Assembly (NCBI RefSeq): GCF_028583425.1
Contig: NC_072795.1
Coordinates: 5,975,001-6,039,000, forward strand
Reading direction: 5' to 3'
DNA from: Eublepharis macularius
Taxonomy: Eukaryota > Chordata > Lepidosauria > Squamata > Eublepharidae
Length of the DNA stretch: 64,000 nucleotides
Part shown: in pieces, positions 8,401-23,529 of the stretch
Numbering within the stretch: position 1 is the first letter of the stretch
Layout of the letters: every line of letters starts with the position of its first letter
Translations under genes and position numbers: made by a program
The notes under the pieces: generated by a model
Seen by the model: the letters and a program-made list of their open reading frames with translations, nothing else
Told to the model about the DNA's origin: nothing
Databases searched by the model: none

Positions 8401-10000
8401 GCCACTGCTTTTGGAACCTGATTTTGCAAAGGCACAAAACGAATGCGCCCACCTGCAATAACCTCCCTAGCTTCAAAACTTCAGCTAACACAAAAGTACT
8501 TTCCTTATAAGACTTTCATTTCCTACTAAGATTTTCATTTAAAACTGACGCCTCCTTTGCCATTCTGCAAAGCAGCTTTGAAATACATCAAAGGTTTCAA
8601 GCGCCTCGCCGTGTTCTTCCCTTGTGCACTGCTGCCCTCTAGTGTCCAGAGAATTCTTCAGCCAAACCACTTCTTCCATTTGCTCAGTGGCCTTTAGGCG
8701 CTTCTCCAACACAATTTTTCAAAATGGCTGCATTTCCCTAGCTTTTTCTCCTCTCTAATTTGCATACCCCGCAGGGATTTCTAGGCCTCATTTCAGGCAC
8801 TCTCACAACCACCAGGACAATTTAGGTCTGATTTAGCAATCTCACGAGCTCTTTATTTTCTTGCATTAAAAGTCATACTGCATCTCATAGGTGGGAAAAG
8901 AGGCTCCAGTTTTCCTCCACCCACCCTCTTAAGCTGACTAACGCAGATCATATCAATGCCGAGACCTTTGGTCTCATACTCCCGGCTGGAAAGGGTGGGG
9001 TGGGGGACTTAAGGACAATCTTGATACTTTAAAAGGCTTATTTGCAGAGCGTTAGGTTTTAGGTTCAGCCCTCAGCTGAAATTATCTTTGAGACACCTCT
9101 GAGATCCTGCAGTACTGTTGCCAGTAGACAACACTGATTCAACAGCATTCAGAGTTCATTTCATTCCCACATCATTTGAGGGGGAGAATAGATGAAGCCT
9201 GTACAGTCCCTGGGCCACCCAGCAGGTTACACAAAAGAACAAGGATTTTAACTTTGGCCTCCCCTAGCCCCCAGTGCCTTTCACCATCAGGAAGTTGGAA
9301 GGGGCTTATAAACCATGCAGCCCATCTTCTACGCAAAGCAGGAAAATCAAGTTAGAGCCTCTGATGGATGCTTGAGAGCCGCCACTTAAAGTCCCTCTTG
9401 GTGGGAGTTGGTGAACACCCTTTGCGAGTTTCTCCTAATGGTTTATGCTTTGCTACCCTCACAGGAGAGGTCTTGCCCTATTCTGTGCAACAGTCCTTCA
9501 GTTATTTGAAGCGCACGATCATCACAGCAGACTTAAGCAAACACAGGACTTGCTTCTCCAAACAGCTGAGTGTTCGTCTTCCTTTCTCAAAAGTGCTGCT
9601 CCACGGTGTCGCCATTCCTCCATTTAAGAAGTTCCCAAGTCTGCTGTCACAACCTAAAATGGTCTTTACCTGGGTTGCAGACGACTCATGCTGCCACTTC
9701 AACTCCAAGCCCGAGATCCTTTTGTTAACACAAACAACGCTGGGGCAGAACATGGTATATGGTAGTGAAGCCAGATGCTAGAGGAAATTTTTCCTTAAAG
9801 CACTACCCGTTTTTGCACTGGTTTGTCTCTTTTCCCCTTTTACCAGAAAGCTGAATGTTTGGGATGCCGAATTCTCCACATCATTATGCGCTCTGCAACC
9901 ATTCAAGATAAAAAAAACATAGATGGCACTTGGTGCGAGCTTTCAAGTTGCATAAAACGCTTCACAAGTCAGTGCTCGGAACTGTCGTCAATGGGGTGTG
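8401..10000. other. no gene seen; degraded repeat-like stretch
   Basis: A 137-codon plus-strand frame at 9368-9781 has no recognisable domain and is covered by opposing frames. About 9290-9620 reads like an old LINE- or SINE-derived sequence, but I cannot assign it. Confidence 0.4.
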
Positions 10001-10004
10001 TGTG

Positions 10005-10242
10005 TGTTAAATATTCGATTTATATACTGCCCTTCAGGATGATTTAACACCCACTCAGAGCGCTTTACAAAGTATGTCATTATTATCCCAACACCCTGTG
10101 AGGTGGGTGAGGCTGAGAGAGCTCCAGAGAGCTGTGACTGAGCCAAGGTCACCCAGCTGGCTTCAAGTAGAGGAGTGGGGAATCAAACCCAGCTCTCTAG
10201 AGTCCCGCGCTCATAACCACTACACCAAACTGGCTCTTTTCT
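10005..10242 (-). mobile_element. tRNA-derived SINE, near full length
   Basis: Minus strand begins AGAGCCAGTTTGGTGTAGTG, has B box GGTTTGATTCCCC, then GTGACCTTGGCTCAG and ends in a variant of CAGTATATAAATCGAAT. Lies just downstream of the NCL poly(A) signal. Confidence 0.8.
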
Positions 10243-10589
10243 GACTCCTACTTTGTTCGTTAGTGTTGGCCATTGACAAACACTGCTGCACACTAGTTGC
10301 CTCTTGGAATCAGCATGTGGCTGTGCCAGAACTTGAAGTCAGCCATTTGCCCAATTCTTCCCTAAAACAGCATTACGAGGGCTCATGAAAAGATACACAG
10401 GTCGGCAGTCACCCGGCATTTATTTTCAGAGTCATATGAATAGTAGATCCTTCTTCCAAAATCCACCTAGGCAACCTTCTGGCCGCAGAAAGGCACAAAC
10501 CTTTCTCCTCCCTCTGAAATAAGCTAGCTGGTCACGTACAGCTGTCGACATTGCATGAAAAGGAAACATGGAATTATATACCTTTTTAA

Positions 10590-11331
10590 AAATTAAAGAG
10601 TACCTAAGACTTTATTAAAAATTATTCAGCCTCTCATACAGCAAAACCATGACAAACACAGCTTCTTCTGTGCCATCTAACTCAATGAGCTCTGGCATAG
10701 GAGACCCACAGACAGAGTGAGGCATTTTCATTTTTATGATGCACCCAACCAACAACCTAAACGGAAACAGACTATGCAAGACAGTTAACTCTTCTGAAAA
10801 ATTTCTAATATCGCAAGGGGGGGGAGGAGGATGCACAGTTAAGTAGCACTGCCAATTCTACGCTTTGTCCTTCTTCCCAGCCTCCCTCCTCCACCAGGGA
10901 AGACGACCTAACGTGCAGCTTGTTCGGGTATTCTGCAAGGACACACGCGAATCCATTTAGGCCCTTTAATCTGTCCACGACAGTGTGCCAAGACAAGTGA
11001 TAAAACATTTTGCATTTTTACAGCAAGAAATAAACAAAAAGGAGGAACTACAGAAATGTATAAGGAAGTTATTTTTTTGTACATGGGGGTAAAACATTAT
11101 AAATTCGGGACAATGCACGGACACAGGTCAACTCCCAACATCTCTTGTTGCTCTTTAAAAGTTCATTATGTGTGGCAAGGCAGTCAAAATGGCTGTTTCT
11201 TCATTGAAAGGAATTTTTCCCAAGTAACTCTTAAGGGACTGCGACGCATCTTGGAATGTCCTCAGAAGGCTCCGTCATTGTTTGGTGACAGAATTAAAAA
11301 CCCCAGAGTCCTTTCAGATACAACAAGCCAC
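10590..11331 (-). other. NCL: NCL 3' untranslated region with poly(A) signals
   Basis: Downstream of the stop there is no repeat and no frame for about 740 bases. On the minus strand a canonical AATAAA lies at 10616-10611 and an ATTAAA variant at 10971-10966, so two alternative 3' ends are plausible. The feature end near 10590 is an estimate from the distal signal. Confidence 0.65.
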
Positions 11332-11414
11332 TCAATCGTCAAATTTTATCTTTTTCCCTTGTGGTTTGTGATCTCCGCCACCACCTCTGCCTCCCCGGAA
11401 GCCGCCTCCTCTGC
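11332..11414 (-). CDS. NCL: NCL exon 15, end of RGG tail and stop
   Basis: Starts after tcttag, finishes the RGG tail and ends GDHKPQGKKIKFDD then TGA at 11334-11332. Human ends KKTKFE, so the last residues differ slightly and are one residue longer here. Confidence 0.94.
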
Positions 11415-14400
11415 CTAAGAGAGAGATGAGAAAATTCAGATGCAAATCCACAGCTCAAGAGTGCTCCAGTTAAATGCCGAAAGAGCTTTCTCAGCAAGTG
11501 GGGCTTGCAACAGCAGTTACCTCCAAAGCCTCTGCCACCTCGTCCGCCGAATCCTCCTCTGCCGCCTCGTCCGCCTCGACCACCTCGGCCGAAGCCACCG
11601 CCCCCACGTTGATCACCCCCCTTGGGCTTGGCAAAGTCAAGTGTCACTTTGTTGCCATCTATCTCCCCATCTTCCATGGCTTCTTTTGCTGCTTTGGCAT
11701 CTTCTGGGCAGCTGAAGTCCACAAAGCCGTACCTAGAAAAGGAAACGTTTCAAGGTGGCAAATACACTCCGCCCACGCAGTAGGCAAACATGTTCGGAAA
11801 TGGCCCTTTGCTGCCATTCCACTTGAAAGCAACGCTTGAGGCAAGGAAGATGCTGTTGCCAAGAGATGCAGCTTCTACAGATGAGCTCTTAACCTTTACT
11901 TCAGATCTAAGGAGCCAGATTAGATATTTTAAGGAGATGGACGGGCCGCAAAAAGAAAACGGTGTATGACATGCCTCTAACCACAGCCAGCTCTCATCTC
12001 TTTGCTTGTCTGGCTTGGCTCTTGGTACAGGAAGCACACAAGACCTTCCTAGCCGGAAAAGATGCACCTCAAGCTCTGAAGTTGCTTATTCAAACATCAA
12101 GGCCTGCCTCTTGGATTTCTTAGCCCACCTTTCTGCCAAAAGACCTCCAGGCATCTGCAAAGCATTAGCATCACTCTCACTGAAGATCTGAGACATTCAC
12201 AGAAAACGTAGCCTTCCTAATGCTTGCAGAAAGCCGGCATTTTAAGTCTTCTGCACACTGAGCTATGCGGACAACTTCTGAGAGCAGATTCTCCAGTTAC
12301 AATGTTATCTGACCTGGTGCTCTGTACTCACACAGAGCCTCTAGAAACACAGCGAATCTTCAGTTAACCTCATGGAGGGGGAAGTCATAACACAGCTCCC
12401 CTCTGTAGTCATTCTGCACCTGAGCAAGTTAGGGTTTTAAAAAGGCAAGCACCGATCAGGGTTTTTCAGCAGGAAATCAGTCATTTCCCAGGCTAGTGTG
12501 TCCTCATTTTGTTCCCCTGGCCAAGCCCCCAGTATCTACGCCACTTTAGGAATGGCTGCTTGGAGGGAAGGCAAACCATGAGCTGCACTGGGGTGGGGAC
12601 GGGCTACAGCCAACCTAGGCTTACTGCATGCTCTAGAACCTGCAGACAACTGGCAAAGCTGTGCCACGGGACGACTGTTGTGCGCACCTGAAGCACACAG
12701 AGGCGCTCAACAATCAGCACTGTGGTCTTGCTCTTCTTCTCGGGCGAATCCATTACCTGCCACTGGGTTCACAGCAGGAAGGAGCTCATTGAGAAGGGCA
12801 GAAAGTCCCATTTCTCACTTAAAAGTGCTTCGGCTATGCGGGCTTTCCAGCGCAGGCCAGCAGCCTTTCCCCATGCTCAACAAAGCACTCTTGGGCTCTG
12901 CGCATACCCTTTGGATGAACCCGTGTCTCTGTCTGTGACGATTCTTGCACCGACAGAACCATCAAATGACTCTCGCAGCGTTTCTTCTGTGGTGTCCTCG
13001 GACAGGCCTTTCACAAAGAGGGTCTTGCTTTGTTCTAAATAGAAGGGGAAACAGCCACAGATTAACTTCTAGAGTGTTGACTTTAAGGAGGGGGGGGGGC
13101 ATCTCCCCGACCGCACACTTTACTGACATGCTTAGAACGGAGGCACCAGGAAAGTACAACCCCCCCCCCCACTATTTCATTCCAGAATTGTAATAAGAAT
13201 TAAGAACTGGGCCGCCTTCCCCCAATTAGCTTGACTAGGGCTGGCTTACGGCCAAATCCTCCTCTACTGTTGAAGTTCCTGTTTTGGCCTCCAGGAGTGC
13301 TGTATTCCAATCTGATTGTCCGGCCTTCAATCTCTGTTTTGTTGCAGGAACTCATGGCTTCCTTCGCATCTTCGACTGTGGGGAACTCTACAAAAGCATA
13401 CCTGGACCGAGAGAAGTTGGATTTTTTTAAAAAAGGGGGTGTATATATACTCTTGCACGAGGTGACAGCAGACAGTGATTTGCAGAGGGAAGTCCCATGA
13501 CCCCACCTGCTCGCAGACTTTGCTCCCATGAAGCCGCCTCAAGCCTGTCCCTACGTACCCTTTAGGCCTCCCCTGGGGGTTCTGCGGGATCCTGATAGCC
13601 GACGCTTTCTCAAACACATCCTGGAGAGCTTCCTCTGTGGCGTCGTAGGCGAGGTTGTTCACAACAAGGGTTTTGGACTCCGCACCTGCGCAGAAGACAC
13701 ACCGGACTATTCCGCGTTCTAAGCAGACCTCCGAGGCGCCTCTCTTGGCACTGGAATCCTGACTCAATTTACCCTTCTGTGACTTGAGTTAAATGGTTTT
13801 TGTCGTAAAACGTGTTTTCACACACGTTTTTGTGGCTATTGGGGGGGGGGGTAGGATGCAGCCCCTCAGCTGTGTTTATAGAGGGAGGGAAGAAATATCC
13901 CAAGGAAGCCCATTTCCTTTCTTGCCAAGGCCACAGATGGAGGCACGCCCCCCCCCGCTAATATGGTAGGCTCCCAAAGACAACGGCGGCTCCTGTATGG
14001 TGCCTTTGGCAGCCCGTGACATCACTGCATTTATTGCGTTACCTGGCTGTGGCTTAACGCCCTGCTGGCTTTTCTCTCCTGTGTAGTCAAGGATGATGGA
14101 ACGACCCTCAAGTTCCATTCCTTGTTTCTCCTCCATTGCTTTCTCCGCATCGGCTTCAGATTTAAATTCAATGTAGGCAATCCTAAAATTGGGAGAGGTT
14201 TTTGAGCCAACATTTCTCCTTAGGGAAATGGTTTCTAACAGTTGTATTAAATGCAGCCCCAACTGATATATTCTGGCAGTAAGCTGGTGGGGGGGGGGGG
14301 AGGGGGGGAGAGTAACACATGGTATACTTTCCCAGGAATTTAAACAGATGACAACAACCGCAACTCCATACCCTTTGCTGCTTCCATCCTTGAACACCAG

Positions 14401-17400
14401 CCTGATTTCCACGGCATCCGCAAACACTTCCTGCAGGTCCTCTTGGGTTATATTGTAAGCAAGGTTCTTCACAAACAGGGTTCTTGCATCTCTCTCTGAA
14501 AGGAAGACGAACAAGGAAACTTTAAACCGCTAGCACTGATTCCTACTCAGAGAGCTCTAGGGAAACCAGGGAAGACCCAACTGTACCAGAAGGGGAGCTC
14601 CGCTAGGGAAGTCTCTACCAAGGCCTGCCTTCAAACAAATTCAGATTGCACCCCGCCCCCCCTGGGGGGGGGGGTTAGAAATGCATCCGCAAGAATGCTG
14701 AGCTGGTGAAATAGCATGGCATGAATACAAAATGAAAGCAAGGCGGTCTAGCACCTCTTTAACCTCGGCAAGAGCCAGCCAAGGCAGCTGTGCTTACCTT
14801 TCTTGTTCTCTATTATGCTCTCTTTACTCTTTGCCTTCTCCAGTTTCATTTCCAAGCCCATGAACTTCTTCCCGTTGAGCTTTAGCGCTTTATCCAGCTC
14901 TGCTTCTGAAGAGAAGTCTACATAGCCAAACCTCCTGTGGCACAAAAGGGAGAACTATTAATATTCATCCCTAACTATAAATTTTCATTTGACTCTGGAT
15001 ACAACTGAAAGCAGCTAACTCCTTGCGCAAACAGGGCTCTCGCCTTCCGGAAATACAAAGAAAATCATGGTATTTTGTGGATGAGCTGCCGGTTTGCAGT
15101 GCTTCCAAAACTACAGCAAATTGAAGCAAGCGTAACAAAGTTTCCTTCTGCTACCAGAGCCTTCCTGTGTCAAAAACGCACCCGGCTTCTGGCACAGGCA
15201 AAGTGACTAAACAAGATCTCACCCCAAGCAAAACTCCCCGACTGCGTTACTTTAATGCAGAGGAGTTCGCCGTGTTAGTCTGCAGCATGAAATGCCTTCT
15301 TCCCAAGCTCTTGCTGTCATAACTCTCCACCCCCCCCGATCCTCAAGATGCAAACACTGCTGTAATCACCCTGCAGCCCAACGTTTTTGATCCTGCAGGC
15401 AACTTTACACAATTTTGAGCGCACCCACAAAATGGGTGCCGCAGGAGGTAGACCCAGCCACAAAATGGCTGCTGCCGCTTAACTCGGTCACACAGTGAAG
15501 ATCCTTCTATAGTGGTGGCAGATACTACCAAAGCAATATTAAAGAATTCTGCACTGCCAAATCTCCCATGGAGAATCAGAAGCCCCTCCGGGCAAAAGCT
15601 TCCCCTGGTCCCATCAGCTTTCTAAAACACATCTGGTGGTCGCCAGGAAAGGGGTCATCAGCAGGTACCACGGCACCCACGGGCACCACGCTGGAGGCCC
15701 CTTTGTAAACCCTCCCGGGCCCGCTGCTTCCAGATGCAACAGGCACAGGTTGGCTGTTAAGAGCTGCACCCCCTGGAGACTTCCAAGCTGAACCAGTGAA
15801 GGATGTTTCATATAGCAAAGCTCTTACTTTTTGAAGTCAGTCATGGCTGAGCAAGTGCAGTTCTTACTTTGAGTTGCCTATTCTGACTTCTTGGACTTGC
15901 AGGTCCTTTTTGGCAAAGAAATCCCGGATGGCAGCCTTCAGTTCATCAAAGTCCTTGTTCGCGTTCAGATTACCCATGAAGAGGGAAAAGGAAGTTTCTA
16001 AAAAATTAATTGAAAACCCGTTATACTAGCGACTTTGAATAATGAGCAGAGTGGGCTACGTCAAACCACAGCGACTTTGAATATACCAGCTTCCAAAGAA
16101 AAGATCTTTGGCATTTAGTCACAGTAAGCTTGCAAGACCTGAGCAATGCTGTCAATTATGGAACAGTTTGGAGGTCACTAACTCACAGGGGTTGTCAAAA
16201 GTCGGAAGCGACTTGACAGCAGGTAACACACACATGCGCACGGACACAGCGCTCATACTGGCAGCTACACAATATTAAGACTGCTGCAGATACAAATGGA
16301 AGAAAACCCCAAAAACAGCAACAACTTTTTCAGCGTTTACGAGGTACTGAGATCTTTTTTCTCCTTTGGCAGCTGGATTTGAGTGGCAGGACACCCATAA
16401 TGAGGCATGTATGGAAGATGAAGTTTGTATTTTGCCTGAATCCCAGGGAAGGAGGATGGAAGCACCTACCCAGAGGACGACATCAATGAGACCTAGGATA
16501 CTCACTCCCAGCGACAGAGTTAAGCAAGACTGCCACTCACAGCAAGACTGTCCTAATTGCTGCACTAGAAGGGGGACTGGAACATGCGAAAGGGCTCACA
16601 CAGGGACAGACACTAATCCCTCTCTCATTCCCCAACATGCCCAGCCACTGGATATCAGGCATGCTCCTTTTGACAGACATCCCCTAAGATTTGATTCCTG
16701 AACATGCCACACTGTCAGAATGGTGACACTGGCTTGTATATCTACAGCTGCTTACCCTTGGAAAGAATAATTATCCTTGGAAAGAATAATAGGATAGGGA
16801 GAGATGCGGGACGGACACCACAAATTCAAGAACAATTAGCCATTGTAAGGCGAACACTCAGGACGCTGCTGGCCACTCACCTTCTATTTTCTTTTTCTTG
16901 GCATCTGGAGTGCCTTTTTGTTTGGCCATTTCCTTCTTCCGCTTTCCAGATTTTTCTGCAGTTTCTATCCGGGGGTGGGGTGGGGGGTTGGAAACAAAAA
17001 AAGATAACACAGCTGTCAGAAAGATCTCAGAGGGGGAGACAGAGCACGTGTCACAAAAGACAGCTGGATCAGGACTTGACTATCTTTTGTGGAGTTCATA
17101 TGTGAATTTTATCACATCACCTCAGCGAGGAATCATCATTTCCAGCATCGGGATCAAAAAGGAAAGGCAAGAGAAGCTCTTCAAGATACAGACAGACTAA
17201 AGGACTAGATCGATTCTTCACATAATAAAAGCAAACGGGCACATTCAACTCACCTTCTTCCTCTTCCTCCTCCTCCTCGTCATCATCATCTTCGTCGTCA
17301 TCGTCATCTTCTTCATCTTCCTCATCCTCAGAATCTCCTGCGGCAGCCTTTACTGGGGCAAGCTTGGCTGGAACGGCTTTCTTCCCTTTGGCTGGGGTGG

Positions 17401-20400
17401 TGTCCATAAGCTCCTCTTCAGAGTCTGAAATAAGGCAGCCGATTTATTAACAGGTCACAAATGGAGCCACAGCACAAGCGCCACTGCAATTCTTCTTGCT
17501 CCTTTCAGAAGAGGAGCCGGTTAAGGAAATCGCGGTACTCTAAGGCAATGGCGGGCGTTGAATCACAGCTGAAGGCTTTGGGTTTATTCAAAGGAGCGTA
17601 TGCCCCCTAGGTGTAGAAAAGCTGCCCCCTTCCGCTCATTCGACACCATCAGATTTCACGAAGAATGGAAGTAGTGGCAGTATTTTAAACTAGACAGTTT
17701 TGAATGTTGTATAAATAATCAACTGGACCCGTTAAATCCAAATATAAATATACAGCGCAATTCTTTTAGACACTAAATTGTGCAACCCAAAGATTTAGAT
17801 AACACAGTTTCATTACGTACAAACATTTAAATGACCATTATAGTCGGCTAAGTACAAAGAACAGTCTTAGTCAATTGACTAAAGACTGTTCTTTGTACTT
17901 ACCCGACTATGATGGCCATTTAAATTTCCTCAATAATGTTTGTACATAATGAAATGGTGTTATCTAAATCTCTGGGTTGCACTATTCCGTGTCTAAAAGA
18001 ATTACACTTTATATTTATATTTGGATTTAACTGGTCCGATTGATTACTTATCCCTAGGTTTTGTTTACATATTTTGTACTGGTTCTGTGCACTCAGGGTT
18101 GCCCTCGGTTTGTCACTACTTAGTGTTGACTGTTGGGCAAGTCTGGCCCAGAGTTGCCTGGATTTTTTGGGACGTCTCAGCAGCACGGGTGACACACACA
18201 CACACACACACACCCCGACCCCACATGCTGTCCCAGTTCAGCGAAGCCAGAGGATCAGAACTCTGCTCCACAACTATGCTTGGGCCCAACACATCAGTAC
18301 GCAACTGAGACATCACAGCAAACATCAGTATTAAGTCCCAATGCTCATCATTTGTGCTGGCCATCAAGGAAACCCAAGGCGGCCAAGCTCTCTCTCTCTG
18401 ATTTTTAATTAAGAATTTTATTATGGCAAAGAAATTAAAGTAAAAGAAGTGCATAATATAAAAGTTATACAGATTCTAACTCAGACAGTAAACTGAATGT
18501 TATACAATCTTATATAGCCAATAAACATATAAACAATACAGGTATCATAGCTTTGGGAGTAACAGTACGTTTAAATTTCCTTAAACCTAACTACATAACA
18601 TTTCCCCTTCTCTCTCCTGCCTTCTTTTGAGAATTTGATCCTTCAATCTCGATACTATTTGGTGATAAGTCCACCAGGGAATGTTTTTGCCATGGGCCTG
18701 GATTTCTTGCCAAGCTCTTTCTCACAGCGCTCCTTGAACCTTCACTGGCCACGTGGGGCCCCCCACATCCTCCCCTCTCTGCTTACTGGCTATCTGAAGC
18801 AAGTGCAACGATCGCTGGCAAGGTCTAGCCATTTTCACGAAAGGCTCTTCTTTTCCAACCCGGTATTTCTCTTCAGCAACTTTACACACCAGGGTAGTCG
18901 GCTATCTAGCCAACATCCTGTACGCAAGACTTCTGAGAAAACACGACTCACCATCTTCTTCGTCATCCTCGTCGTCCTCTTCATCGTCTTCCTCATCTTC
19001 AGACTCCTGTTTAGCTGATGCAGCTACAGGTTTCTTGGCTGCAATCTGGGCTCCTAGCTTCTTTACTGGCACAGGAGGCTCTGTCTCGGACTCATCTGTA
19101 GCAAGCAATTTGATTGTTCGCTAGTACAGGATACAGAGAACCACTAGTGTGCCTGCAAGTAATATGCCCACTGAGCCCTCTCCTACAAGGCAGAGAACCG
19201 AAAACCATCTCTCGGATCCTCAGCTTTCAAGGCAGTTTACACACAGGAGTGTGTATAACCTGCCTTGAAAGCTGTGTGTGTGTAACAGTTTAAGAATAGT
19301 TGAGAAGCTGGAGCGAGTGCAAAATGCCACAGTCTAGCTTTGCACTGTCGCTGATCTTAAAATCCAAGTCGCTTCATGCAGCGGTCACATGCTTACTACA
19401 TGGTGTCCCCGAAAGCTACCATTAAAATCATCTCTTTTAGAGAACAATGAAACCGTCCCTACAACTCCAAGCCAAACAGCCAAAGGCGCCAAAAGCGAAC
19501 AGGAAATTGGAGTACCTTTTCCTAAAATGTGTTTTGGGCTTTCCCGTTAGAAAAAAAGTTGACTAATGGGAGGAAAGAATTCAAAGGTTTATAAAATCAT
19601 GAAAATTCCACCCCCCCCTCCAAACACTAGAACTTGGAGATACCCCCAACTAAGTTGATATGCAGTGCCTTGTTGACACGTAAAAATAGGTTTTTAGATA
19701 ACACATTTAACTTGTGGAACTAATTATCGCAAAATATAAAGAGGACCATAAGCAGAGGGGACTAATGGCTAAAATGGAAACATTTTGTTCAGAGGCGGTA
19801 AAGCTTGACTGGGCAATCCTAAGAAGAGTTTCTCCAATCTAAGCCCAAAGTAAAAAGTACTTTGGGGCGACGTGGCAACAATGAATGAAGGCTCTGGCCT
19901 TTGCGTTCCTGTCTGCAGGCGATTCGGCACATCTGGGAAAAGGTGCTGCACCAGGCAGACCAGTCATCGGAGGCCGCAAGGCTGCTGTTACAAACATTAA
20001 GTGCTCAGCACACACAGCAACTTCTGCACAAGAACTTCTGCTTCTAATCCCTTTCTTCTTTTGAATAAGCAGATAACTTCCCAACACTTTGCCCTGTCTT
20101 TCTATTTAAATCGAATAAACAAGGCAATAAACTCAGAAAGTAGTGTTTTCACCTGATTCACCTTCATCTTCACTATCTTCTTCGTCCTCCTCCTCCTCCT
20201 CATCTTCCTCCTCGTCACTCTCTTCTTTCTTTGCATTCTTCCCGTTTTTTGCTCCTTTGGTAGGGACTGGAGTCTTCTTTGCTGGAGGAGTAGCAACCTT
20301 CTTTGCCGGGGTTGCGACTGCTTTCTTGGCCGGGGTTGCGACTGCCTTCTTGGCCGGGGTAGCTGCTTTTTTGTTAGCAGCTTTTGCTGGAGTGACTGCT

Positions 20401-23400
20401 TTCTTCTGAGCGAGCATCTGAGGCAAGGCAAGGAGCAGAGTGCACCATCAGCAGTGCTACCCAGAGGTACTAAGACACAGGCAGAAAGACATAACCCACC
20501 AAGAACCAGGAATATCAAGCTTATCCTACAGCATACCTGCCAAACTTGGGACTTTCCTTACAAGGCACTGTTCGACAAAAGATTATGTGAAAAAGAACGG
20601 GGAAAGTTGTCTAGGCTGCAATACATATTGTTATAAGAGACGTCCAAATTAGATTCAATATATATTACCATGTGGCAGGACTGCTGCAAGGAACGATAGC
20701 TGGGTGGGTGCCATTTGAAATGAGGCCGGTTTTCATGATGTGGTTTTGCACGTGGCCTGTGCACTTTGTCTATCACATCTACCTGTGGTTTTTTTGGAGG
20801 GGTAGGTGGGCTCTGCAAGGACAGCTGAAAATACCTTAGCAAAACGGGAAGATGTTGTATAGCGACAGCTTTCCACCACAGAAACGCTGACATACCTAAC
20901 CGTTTCTATGAAAATCACTCTGCCCCACTCTGGGGGGCAGAGGCAAATAAATTCGATACAGAAAAATGTACAGAGGTGTCTTGAGTGCCCACGTGATAAA
21001 TTCTCACCTCTTCCTCACTGCTCACTTCCTCGTCCTCTGAAGAATCCTCTTCTTCACTATCATCGACTTCTTTCGGTGGAGGGGGAGCCATTTTTTTCGG
21101 TTTAGGTTGGTTTTTAACGTTCTGAAAGAAATAGTACAAGCGAAGATTAAGCTTTTACTACAGCCCAAATAATTAAAAAACAGCAATTTAAAATGGACTA
21201 ATGAACTGATTTGATATGTGCAGAAAGCAGGCAATATGTTGGGAATTTGAGCACTGAAGCTTTTGAGAATTTCTTACACGCCTTTAAGTCATAGCAGCAT
21301 AGAAAACATTTGCTACTGAGATATTTTATCTCAGAGGCCCAGGGTACAACTCTAACACTTTGTGAAGTCGCTTAGGCTTGGAGTGTGACTGGCCCAGAGT
21401 CACCCACTGAGCTTCCATTACAGAGTGGGGATTTAAACCTGGGTCTCCTAGACCCTAGTCCTTTACACCATACCAGCTCTTTGGTTTAAGTCCAGCTTTT
21501 CTCTTGGGAGATTTTGGAGGTGGAGCCTGGAGAGGACGAGGTTAGAAAAGGGGCAGGACCTCAGCAGGATATAATGCCATAGACCCCACCCTCCAAAGCA
21601 GCAATTTTCTCCAGGGGAACTAATCTCTGTAGCTTAGAGATCATGTGTAATTTGATGAGATCTCCAGCCACCACCTGGAGGTTGGCAGCGCTAGATCGAA
21701 TGCCACCCTGCCCATGGCTGAAACAAAACTCAAGTTCAGAGAATGACATACATTTTCTAGGAATAAAATCAAGCATACGCTGTCTGTGCCTTCCTCGATG
21801 CAATGTTTGGAAAGCAAACACTGCTAATTTAAACAGGTTCCAATAAAGCACGCCATATCAAGCTTTTACTTTTCATTTTTCCTGGAACAAAAACCAACTG
21901 CAGATTTAACAGATGGCAAAAAAAAGAGAAGAGAATCTCAACTAATATTAGCCCTTTACAACAGTGGTGGTGGAAGAAAGTGGTGTCAAGTCATAGCTGG
22001 CTTATGCTGGGAGTTTCAGGGCAAGAGACTAACAAAGGGTGGTTGGCCATTGCCTGCCTCTGCAACCCTGGAGGTCTCCCATCCAATGAGTAACCCAGGC
22101 TGGCTTTGCTTAGCTTCTGAGATCTCACAAAATTGGGCTAGCCAGGTCAAGGACCCATCCCCTTCTTACCGGCAGCACTAAGGAGTCTGAATGTGGCCCA
22201 AGGGCTTTTGGTTGCTGACCACTGTGGTTTTGGCAGCTCTTGTAAGGGGAAAAAAGGTGTGCAGCTTGCATGTTGACAGTTCACTTTATAATGTAAGCTC
22301 AACCCATTAAGATCTCAGTACTTTCCCAGAGTACAGCTTACTGACAGCATGCAATGTACCACATGTACCCACCAGCTCTTTTAGACGTCCCTCACATCGT
22401 GCCAGTTTCAGGTGGTTAGATGTAACGCCTGCATAAGCGCAAGATCTGGGTCCAACAACACCTTAAAAGACCAACTAGATCTCCAAGCTATGAGCTTTGG
22501 AGAGCCACGGTTATAGAACGCGAGCAGGATTTGCAGACCCAGGTGCGAGCCACCACTGAAGAGAAGCACGCCAGGCGCCTGGGGACCAGTCTGCCTAACC
22601 CGCCTCGCTGTGCGAACGAAAAGGGGGCGGTAGTGGAGTGTATCGTGGCTCTCCCGAGTTCCTCGGGCTGCGAACAGGAAATTAAACGCCACGAACCAAC
22701 CCAGCAAGCGCTCCCCCGGGCAACTGAACAGGACTCGCCCCCTCGGGGCAGGCATGGGCGTGCACAGCACGTGGAGAAGGGCGCGGGCCGCAGGAGGCCT
22801 CTGCCCACGTGGGACCTCCAGCGGGCCTCCCTCGCCAGCAGAGGCGCCGCTCCCGTCAGGGATCCCCGGGCCTCGCTCCTGTGAGCAGCACCGCGTGGCG
22901 CTGCAAAGGGCGAGAGAAGCGGCCGCGGGGGCAATTTCCTCCCCTTCCACGTGCCGCCCCGACTCCAGGGCCGCATCACGTGGCGGCAAGAGGAGGAGGG
23001 AGAAAAAGCGCGCGCGCGCGCACGCACAAAAGGAAAGGGGGCAGGCGCGCGCCTCTCCTCCCCTCGCGCCAGCAGGCCGCTTACTCGCGCGCGCGACGTC
23101 GAGCGAGGGGCGCCTAGAAACTCCGGCCGCGCACGCGCTCTCTCCTCCTCGGCTTTGAAAGGGGGAGAGCGCGGCGCGCGGGAGGAGGGGGAGCCTGAAA
23201 ACCGCCGAACGTTCTATGGCGACGCGCTCGCCTCACAAGCCAATAAGGGAGCGGTGAAAAAAAGGGGGGATTAAGAATGGTGGGGGGTGGGCTTGAAACG
23301 GCAATTCCCTCCCTTTTTTTCTCTCTCGCTTCCCTCATAGAATAATGCGCGGGAGGGCCCTTGAAACTGCACTGCACGCGCCAGGCCGAGGCCCTCCCCA

Positions 23401-23529
23401 CTTCGCCGCCTCAGCAGCTTTTCGAAGCCCCTTCAGGGATTTTTAAAAAAAAGGCCCTTTCCCCGCCGGCGCCCGCTCCCCTTCTCCCTCCGTTAGGCCG
23501 CGCGGGCTCACCTTGGCGAGCTTCACCAT
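11332..23529 (-). CDS. NCL: nucleolin, spliced from 15 coding exons
   Basis: Nucleolin is an abundant nucleolar RNA-binding protein and histone chaperone acting in rDNA transcription, pre-rRNA processing and ribosome assembly. Joining the exons listed below gives about 675 residues (human 710). Order: start MVKLAK; acidic and TPAKK-repeat N-terminus (about 7-240); bipartite basic nuclear signal with KRKKEMAKQK (about 245-265); RRM1 (about 268-343, RNP2 LFMGNL, RNP1 RFGYVDF); RRM2 (357-430, LFVKNL, GIAYIEF); RRM3 (445-520, LVVNNL, GYAFVEF); RRM4 (538-612, LFVKGL, GYGFVDF); glycine/arginine-rich RGG tail ending KKIKFDD. Every intron is GT-AG and all phases agree, with no stop before 11332-11334, so the gene looks intact. 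Each RRM is split by one phase-2 intron just before or within RNP1, the known NCL pattern. Introns 4, 5 and 13 host snoRNAs. Identification is secure; the exon 6 acceptor is the one ambiguous junction. Confidence 0.97.
11521..11732 (-). CDS. NCL: NCL exon 14, second half of RRM4 and start of RGG domain
   Basis: RNP1 YGFVDF, then EDAKAAKEAMEDGEIDGNKV and the beginning of the RGG domain with repeated GGRGG units. Acceptor ttctag, donor G|gtaact, phase 1. Arginines in RGG contexts are the known methylation sites of nucleolin. Confidence 0.94.
12657..12800 (-). ncRNA. SNORA75: H/ACA snoRNA SNORA75 (U23) in NCL intron 13
   Basis: Read on the minus strand: lower stem CTTCTC (12796-12791) with GAGAAG (12741-12736); an upper hairpin CCTGC/GCAGG; a pocket formed by AATGAGC and TTCGC that pairs with 18S GCTCATT and GCGAA and leaves U93-G94 unpaired; then H box AGAGCA (12734-12729), 14 bases from the pocket. 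A second hairpin follows (TGTTG-A-GCGC with GCGC-A-CAACA, lower stem CCAC/GTGG) and an ACA box at 12662-12660, three bases from the predicted 3' end. U93 is the known U23 target and the host intron, between the two RRM4 halves, is the mammalian U23 intron. The 5' end is uncertain by a few bases. Confidence 0.82.
12908..13034 (-). CDS. NCL: NCL exon 13, first half of RRM4
   Basis: Encodes QQSKTLFVKGLSEDTTEETL and RIVTDRDTGSSKG, nearly identical to human RRM4. Acceptor atttag, donor GG|gtatgc, phase 2. The following intron 13 carries SNORA75. Confidence 0.94.
13250..13401 (-). CDS. NCL: NCL exon 12, second half of RRM3
   Basis: RNP1 YAFVEF, then DAKEAMSSCNKTEIEGRTIR and a glycine/asparagine-rich linker ending GGFGR. 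Acceptor gtccag, donor C|gtaagc, phase 1. Confidence 0.93.
13559..13685 (-). CDS. NCL: NCL exon 11, first half of RRM3
   Basis: AESKTLVVNNLAYDATEEAL with RNP2 LVVNNL, ending PQNPQGRPKG. Acceptor cgcag, donor GG|gtacgt, phase 2. Confidence 0.94.
14043..14182 (-). CDS. NCL: NCL exon 10, second half of RRM2
   Basis: Starts in RNP1 (IAYIEF) and continues KSEADAEKAMEEKQG, ending in the linker YTGEKSQQGVKPQP. Acceptor ttttag, donor G|gtaacg, phase 1. Confidence 0.94.
14372..14495 (-). CDS. NCL: NCL exon 9, first half of RRM2
   Basis: Encodes ERDARTLFVKNLAY with RNP2 LFVKNL, through EIRLVFKDGSSKG. Acceptor tttcag, donor GG|gtatgg (phase 2). Very close to human ERDARTLLAKNLPYKV. Confidence 0.94.
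14798..14934 (-). CDS. NCL: NCL exon 8, second half of RRM1
   Basis: Starts with RFGYVDF (RNP1) and runs through the second helix to KSKESIIENKK. Acceptor gccacag, donor G|gtaagc. Its intron sits at the same RRM position as those in RRM2, 3 and 4, as expected for repeat-duplicated RRM exons. Confidence 0.93.
15868..15997 (-). CDS. NCL: NCL exon 7, first half of RRM1
   Basis: Carries RNP2 as LFMGNL and the first helix and strand of RRM1 up to VRIGNSK. Phase 1 in, phase 2 out at AA|gtaaga. The split codon joins exon 8 as lysine before the RNP1 motif. Confidence 0.93.
16881..16964 (-). CDS. NCL: NCL exon 6, bipartite nuclear localisation signal
   Basis: Encodes KSGKRKKEMAKQKG and DAKKKKIEG, the two basic clusters of the nucleolin nuclear signal. 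Two AG acceptors 9 bases apart keep the same frame: one at ggatag (exon start 16964) and one at ctgcag (start 16955). The choice adds or drops three residues (ETA). The pyrimidine tract upstream could serve either. Donor G|gtgagt at 16880. Confidence 0.88.
17063..17146 (-). ncRNA. SNORD20: box C/D snoRNA SNORD20 (U20) in NCL intron 5
   Basis: Perfect 6-bp terminal stem GCTGGA/TCCAGC encloses box C ATGATGA (17139-17133) and box D CTGA (17072-17069). Upstream of D, AGATAGTCAAGT is a 12-base complement to 18S rRNA ACTTGACTATCT near the 3' end; the fifth base before D pairs with the uridine at human position 1804, the U20 target. Length 84 nt fits the family. Internal D'-like CTGA at 17125-17122 lies too close to box C to guide. 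In mammals U20 is reported in NCL intron 11, between RRM3 and RRM4; the equivalent intron here (13035-13249) has no UGAUGA or U20 guide, so the location differs. Confidence 0.86.
17254..17424 (-). CDS. NCL: NCL exon 5, METTPAKGKK-like segment and fourth acidic tract
   Basis: Fifty-seven codons in phase 1: DSEEELMDTTPAKGKK, close to human DSEEEAMETTPAKGKK, then an almost uninterrupted run of about 30 acidic residues encoded by GAR/GAY codons. Acceptor atttcag, donor G|gtgagt. Confidence 0.95.
17721..18036. repeat. 316-bp palindromic element in NCL intron 4
   Basis: Two arms of about 155 bp are inverted copies of each other around a centre at GTCAATTGAC (about 17870-17880); arms begin AACTGGACC and end GGATTTAACTGGTCC. 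The arms differ by scattered substitutions and small gaps, so the copy is not new. It looks like a fold-back, MITE-like DNA element. I found no clear target duplication. It lies about 250 bp downstream of SNORD82 in the transcript. Confidence 0.75.
18189..18212. repeat. (CA)n microsatellite in NCL intron 4
   Basis: About eleven CA units, directly between the palindrome and SNORD82. Confidence 0.9.
18286..18360 (-). ncRNA. SNORD82: box C/D snoRNA SNORD82 (U82) in NCL intron 4
   Basis: On the minus strand an 8-bp terminal stem, CCAGCACA with TGTGTTGG (one G-U), encloses box C ATGATGA (18351-18345) and box D CTGA (18297-18294). An internal CTGA at 18328-18325 serves as D'. The bases before D', GGGACTTAAT, are complementary to 18S rRNA ATTAAGTCCC; the fifth base upstream of D' pairs with the adenosine at human position 1678, the known U82 target (rRNA numbering from memory). 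The RNA directs 2'-O-methylation and is expected to be released from the spliced intron. Mammalian U82 is also in an NCL intron, reported as intron 5. Confidence 0.87.
18952..19095 (-). CDS. NCL: NCL exon 4, third acidic tract
   Basis: Forty-eight codons, phase 1 in and out: a lysine/alanine/proline segment (PPVPVKKLGAQIAAKK) followed by a glutamate/aspartate run. Acceptor ctacag, donor G|gtgagt. Rodent and human NCL are described with 14 exons, so this separate exon probably accounts for the fifteenth. Confidence 0.9.
20153..20417 (-). CDS. NCL: NCL exon 3, TPAKK repeats and second acidic tract
   Basis: Starts after a cctcag acceptor with MLAQKKAV and carries five TPAKK-like basic units, the known mitotic CDK1 target motifs of nucleolin. 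A linker with KGAKNGKNAKKE follows, then a long E/D run. The exon ends after one base of a codon (phase 1) at G|gtgaaa. Confidence 0.95.
21008..21121 (-). CDS. NCL: NCL exon 2, first acidic tract
   Basis: Thirty-eight codons in phase 0, from NVKNQPKPKK and MAPPPPKEV to an acidic serine/glutamate run ending SSEEE. Acceptor tttcag|A and donor GAG|gtgaga are both good. It matches the nucleolin segment that carries casein-kinase-2-type sites in acidic serine clusters. Confidence 0.95.
21335..21482 (-). mobile_element. tRNA-derived SINE fragment in NCL intron 1
   Basis: Minus-strand head with a GTGTAAAGGACTAG-type A-box region and CCCAGGTTTAAATCCCC B-box-like sequence, then GTGACTCTGGGCC. One of about ten copies of this family in the window. 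Confidence 0.65.
21497..21692 (-). mobile_element. hAT-like MITE family A, truncated, in NCL intron 1
   Basis: Carries the family body (minus strand CCACCTCCAAAATCTCC, ATGGCATTATATCC) but lacks one clean terminus. Diverged relative to the copies with intact ends elsewhere in the window. Confidence 0.7.
21985..22150 (-). mobile_element. 5S-rRNA-derived SINE in NCL intron 1
   Basis: On the minus strand it has the 5S rRNA core (GAAGCTAAGCA, then GGATGGGAGACC) followed by the family body with GGCAATGG and AGTCTCTTGCC. Diverged, and in the same orientation as NCL. Confidence 0.75.
23512..23529 (-). CDS. NCL: NCL exon 1 (coding part)
   Basis: Encodes MVKLAK, identical to the known nucleolin start. 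The ATG is at 23529-23527 and the donor reads AAG|gtgagc; the exon ends in phase 0. It lies in the CpG island directly downstream of the predicted transcription start. Confidence 0.95.

Follow-up and report, generated by a model that had tools for sequence, protein, structure and literature searches.

The nucleolin gene (NCL) is a textbook snoRNA host, and one of its residents, the stable, fibrillarin-bound nucleolar RNA U20 (SNORD20, ~80 nt), is located in NCL intron 11 in mammals. In a 64-kb window of the Eublepharis macularius genome, by which we mean the whole stretch of DNA analyzed, U20 sits in a different intron of the same gene. Has the snoRNA moved within its host, was it there from the start, is it a decaying copy, or do the intron numbers simply refer to different introns? 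The intron number is the same in chicken as in mammals: a chicken snoRNA table puts U82 in NCL intron 5 and assigns to NCL intron 11 a U20 whose antisense element is 18 nt long (PMC2653536). Similarly, a mouse study describes a snoRNA transgene inside “nucleolin intron 11”, referring to the U20 paper at that point (PMC2248623).

NCL has 15 exons and hosts U20 in intron 5

The gene, the host intron and the parts of the snoRNA are as follows.

11332..23529, minus strand: NCL coding exons 1-15, from ATG to stop, encoding 675 aa
16965..17253, minus strand: NCL intron 5, host of U20; 289 bp, phase 1
17063..17146, minus strand: SNORD20 (U20), a box C/D snoRNA of 84 nt including the terminal stem, identified by Rfam RF00217, boxes and stem
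17133..17139, minus strand: C box ATGATGA of U20
17074..17085, minus strand: D guide AGATAGTCAAGT of U20, antisense to 18S rRNA
17069..17072, minus strand: D box CTGA of U20

The exon bounds of NCL were set from the sequence, independently of transcripts, and checked by reading frame and splice ends. The resulting frame is uninterrupted over 675 residues and all 14 introns have GT-AG ends. The placement of U20 in intron 5 made by the first-pass annotation of this DNA holds in the full gene model. Human nucleolin RRM1-4 (PDB 9cb5) aligns to NCL residues 269-614 (E = 1.8e-133). Exon 7 begins at residue 266, which is also where the alignment of a single-domain RRM1 chain begins. Introns 7, 9, 11 and 13 interrupt RRM1, RRM2, RRM3 and RRM4, respectively, and intron 12 lies at the RRM3/RRM4 boundary. 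Separately, a Pfam search of 8 of the 70 stop-to-stop open reading frames of at least 110 aa from the window returned no family at E up to 0.001.

Intron 5 separates the final acidic exon from the NLS exon, and with RRM1 starting at exon 7, U20 is upstream of all four RRMs. The snoRNA is on the strand of its host, as are SNORD82 and SNORA75 (see below). Its end is separated from the 3' splice site of intron 5 by 98 nt, which is about the range favorable for intronic C/D snoRNAs.

At curated Rfam thresholds the 64-kb window has two matches, SNORD82 and SNORD20. The SNORD20 match (RF00217; 17064-17144, minus strand; E = 9.9e-05 over the whole window) scores 44.8 bits against a gathering score of 43; although the margin is only 1.8 bits, this agrees with the earlier identification of the element as U20. 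The boxes C and D, 6-bp stem and 12-base guide that had been noted with it are likewise present: ATGATGA and CTGA, six of six pairs between GCTGGA (17146-17141) and TCCAGC (17068-17063), and a perfect 12-nt antisense run to 18S rRNA. This run compares with 21 nt in the Rfam consensus and with the 18 nt given in the chicken table. Between guide and D box stands a single unpaired C, a U in the Rfam consensus, and the alignment shows that outside the boxes and guide the U20 described here is clearly unlike that consensus. Eight stretches of the window match AGATAGTCAAGT with at most 2 mismatches, and the sole exact match is U20 itself. The fifth nucleotide before the D box points to a position that we take to be U1804 of human 18S rRNA.

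The predicted fold of U20 is no stronger than that of shuffled sequences (z = -1.3). When 20 upstream and 60 downstream bases are included, the guide is predicted to pair with the 3' flank (-37.3 kcal/mol) in preference to formation of the terminal stem (-32.5 kcal/mol). The C/D motif is normally bound and held by snoRNP proteins, which are absent from such a prediction. As a separate observation, the 3' flank and the guide form a 12-nt inverted repeat that is 11/12 complementary (17052-17091, minus strand). An equally good guide/flank 12-mer arose in 6 of 5000 single-base shuffles of the flank, and an equally good match to any 12-mer of U20 in 4 of 500. Under dinucleotide-keeping shuffles, made with our own routine that reverts to single-base shuffles upon failure, guide pairing was equally high in 225 of 300 and the energy equally low in 19 of 300. 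A candidate anti-guide hairpin at U20 therefore has ordinary guide pairing and mildly unusual energy by the dinucleotide measure, and we use it in none of our conclusions.

No U20 was found in the RRM3/RRM4 intron

To compare intron 5 with the reference position, the introns have to be matched between genes with different exon counts. NCL has 15 coding exons here, compared with the 14 exons stated for rat (PMC2711064); the intron by which the two differ is probably amino-terminal. When introns are counted backwards from the last one, intron 11 of a gene with 14 exons corresponds to intron 12 here, the RRM3/RRM4 intron. U23 (SNORA75) gives a fixed point for this count. In mammals U23 is found in NCL intron 12, and in our gene model it is in intron 13, in agreement with an offset of one; its place in the intron inside RRM4 fixes the matching of introns toward the 3' end of the gene.

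13035..13249, minus strand: NCL intron 12, 215 bp, separating RRM3 from RRM4; the inferred counterpart of the chicken and mammalian U20 intron
12657..12798, minus strand: SNORA75 (U23) in NCL intron 13, inside RRM4; Rfam RF00072, 66.6 bits, E = 1.2e-08

SNORA75 comes from a relaxed-threshold Rfam run over 9000-23500, which gave 21 matches in all; its score is under the gathering score of 80, and it is therefore missed at curated Rfam thresholds.

Several searches bear on whether intron 12 holds a U20. TGATGA is absent from it, as is any C/D candidate whose stem reaches 4 pairs, and the exact guide occurs solely at U20, so the earlier statement that this intron lacks both UGAUGA and the guide stands. 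SNORD20 was not among the matches at E up to 10 in an Rfam scan of 279 bases around intron 12; there were 2, both to MIR2118, at ~12 bits against a cut-off of 85. When the U20 of the window was locally aligned to intron 12, 125 of 500 single-base shuffles did equally well or better, as did 74 of 500 for the Rfam U20 consensus. In contrast to these values, local alignment to intron 5 was equaled by none of 500 shuffles for either query (trivially so for the window's own U20). A second U20 in intron 12, which the first-pass annotation had named as an observation that would count against its reading, was thus looked for by Rfam and C/D scans and not found, and together with the local alignments these scans show neither a copy nor a relic there. 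Elsewhere in the gene, Rfam at E up to 10 gave no further SNORD20 over 9000-23500, which covers the 14 introns minus the first 11 bases of intron 1. A C/D scan of the 14 introns recovered U82 and U20 along with three loose candidates, each with a single mismatch in its C box. Of these, one overlaps U82 and two overlap U20; there were none in the other 12 introns.

U20 has probably been relocated within NCL

U20 is found here in a non-homologous intron of the same host and no copy was found in the reference intron, the reference position being given by intron number rather than by aligned sequence. We therefore think it likely that this is a working U20 in a new slot of NCL, which was copied into intron 5 and lost from the RRM3/RRM4 intron after the split from the chicken line. 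Given that chicken and mammals agree on the position of U20, a move in the lineage of Eublepharis macularius is the most parsimonious account. In an ancestor living after that split, a copy of U20 would have arrived in NCL intron 5, and the RRM3/RRM4 intron would have lost its own. In the present gene, intron 5 would be spliced out of NCL and debranched, whereupon exonucleases would trim it up to a C/D snoRNP held via the C/D boxes and the 6-bp stem. The mature U20 would then guide 2'-O-methylation of 18S U1804. We infer the expression, processing and methylation activity of U20, as we do the direction and mechanism of the move.

No trace of how U20 arrived was found in its flanks. The longest word common to the 54-nt and 58-nt flanks is 7 nt, a length reached in 193 of 500 shuffles and no sign of a target-site duplication, and the 3' flank shows no A-tail. 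The signature of a retroposed copy (snoRT) is thus lacking at intron 5, although an old insertion could have lost both features. Nor is there a sign that U20 brought neighboring intron 12 sequence with it: its flanks in intron 5 resemble intron 12 no more than shuffles do, 149 of 500 being equally good. The missing traces may mean simply that the event is old. By analogy, the likeliest path would be duplication into intron 5 followed by loss from intron 12; we favor it because the study of chicken snoRNAs gives intragenic duplication as the source of almost all snoRNA paralogs (PMC2653536).

The same fact about chicken paralogs can be turned to a different history, in which U20 started out in the acidic-domain intron of the amniote or sauropsid ancestor, or once occupied two introns and was lost differentially, mammals and chicken each keeping the intron 11 copy and the lineage of Eublepharis macularius the other. 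The clear differences between the present U20 and the Rfam consensus, away from boxes and guide, would also fit. Against this, neither the Rfam search at E up to 10 over 9000-23500 nor the C/D scan of the 12 introns other than those of U82 and U20 turned up another copy, and matching losses would be needed in mammals and chicken. The first-pass annotation had itself named a pattern that would weigh against its reading, U20 in an acidic-domain intron of all other amniotes, and the chicken table gives NCL intron 11 instead. We regard such an ancestral or double placement as unlikely. A mere numbering effect, with the printed “intron 11” being something other than the RRM3/RRM4 intron, is far less credible still, and we consider it highly improbable. 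Published intron numbers do vary with the gene model used, the exon counts are unequal (15 here, 14 in rat; PMC2711064), and the chicken numbers stand in a table without sequence (PMC2653536). However, a shift by one or two cannot make intron 11 into intron 5, and U20 here precedes all of the RRMs, whereas intron 11 of a 14-exon gene is the third from the 3' end.

Could the copy in intron 5 instead be a decaying pseudogene, with U1804 guided by another copy or left unguided? The shortened guide complementarity (12 nt, against 21 in the Rfam consensus), the C adjoining the D box in place of the consensus U, the Rfam score barely over its cut-off, a fold no stronger than shuffles and the preference of the predicted precursor for the guide-flank hairpin over the terminal stem could all be read this way. 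However, both boxes and all six terminal pairs are intact, guides of 12 nt are nothing unusual (9-19 nt among the available rows of the chicken table; PMC2653536), and the guide has no other exact copy in the 64-kb window. We hold a pseudogene to be quite improbable, and a working U20 that was relocated within NCL remains our preferred explanation.

U82 and other features of the NCL introns

Two further features lie in intron 4.

18289..18358, minus strand: SNORD82 (U82) in NCL intron 4; Rfam RF00158, 53.9 bits, gathering score 43
17711..18051, no strand assigned: near-palindrome of 341 bp in the part of intron 4 downstream of U82

Intron 4 continues for 864 nt past U82 before its 3' splice site. 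In the predicted fold of a 92-nt stretch around U82 (-28.2 kcal/mol, z = -2.19), the stem reaches past the ends of the snoRNA. Downstream, the 864-nt stretch is predicted to be closed by a single outer helix, 18286/17471, that would bring U82 near the splice site.

The position of U82 raises the same question as that of U20. Rat NCL has four RRMs of two exons each. Combined with the 14 rat exons, this layout would give five amino-terminal exons in rat compared with six here, such that the printed chicken “intron 5” would correspond to intron 6 in our gene model, just before RRM1. SNORD82 was not among the 6 matches that an Rfam scan of 15960-16920 returned at E up to 10. Since U82 is in intron 4 and not in the presumed counterpart of the printed intron 5, it may have shifted as well, a possibility that we advance only tentatively from printed numbers and a presumed exon layout. 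It is similarly conceivable, if doubtful, that U82 and U20 both shifted upstream into acidic-domain introns in this lineage while U23, an H/ACA snoRNA, stayed, with the order U82-U20-U23 kept. If true, C/D snoRNAs would tend to land by recombination among the acidic exons, whose ends are repeat-like and whose introns share phase 1.

The arms of the near-palindrome match over 117 nt at 88%, with an inner 44 nt at 93%, and it is probably a remnant of a palindromic transposon. It accounts for the sub-threshold microRNA matches of the relaxed Rfam run, namely MIR6149 (E = 1.1e-05) and mir-86 on both strands (0.00069 and 0.0035), all of which fall inside it. Beyond U20, U82 and SNORA75, the other 18 matches of that run are all under their cut-offs and include, besides these, CncR1 at 19552-19704 (E = 0.0033) and 14 more at E of at least 0.13, four of which overlap U20 or U82. 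We take the 18 as hairpin artefacts, cross-matches or chance.

Comparison with known systems

Finding U20 elsewhere in NCL implies that the pairing of snoRNA and intron is not fixed even for U20. The position of U20 is also a marker that could be dated within reptiles, and a relocated U20 offers a natural test of what a snoRNA needs after a move, for example a given 3' splice site distance or an external stem. Among the matches listed from the CC-licensed literature, no title or abstract was on the topic of the U20 position in reptiles. A comparison of the chicken snoRNA loci with those of lizard, frog and others is described as Additional file 3 of PMC2653536, and it may already give the position of U20 in a lizard. 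Outside reptiles, the U20 guide pattern had no match in a viral or a prokaryote collection; viral contigs gave no match to an 18S stretch and no relative of NCL, with 2 stretches fitting a pattern and neither confirmed.

Compared with U20 in chicken, as tabulated, and in mammals, the U20 described here shares the snoRNA family, the host gene, the host strand and the rRNA target. It differs in its intron, which is intron 5 and not the RRM3/RRM4 intron indicated by the intron numbers of chicken and mammals. The shuffling of snoRNAs among introns of one host has been described before, and U20 of NCL looks like a clean further example. A published text on snoRNA movement deals with the same phenomenon, with no occurrence of nucleolin, NCL or U20 in it. 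In a published host-gene case, as in NCL, the snoRNAs stay in their host while their intron arrangement is unlike that of human. The two cases differ in extent: eight snoRNAs are reordered in the published one, whereas in NCL one, perhaps two, have shifted and the order is intact.
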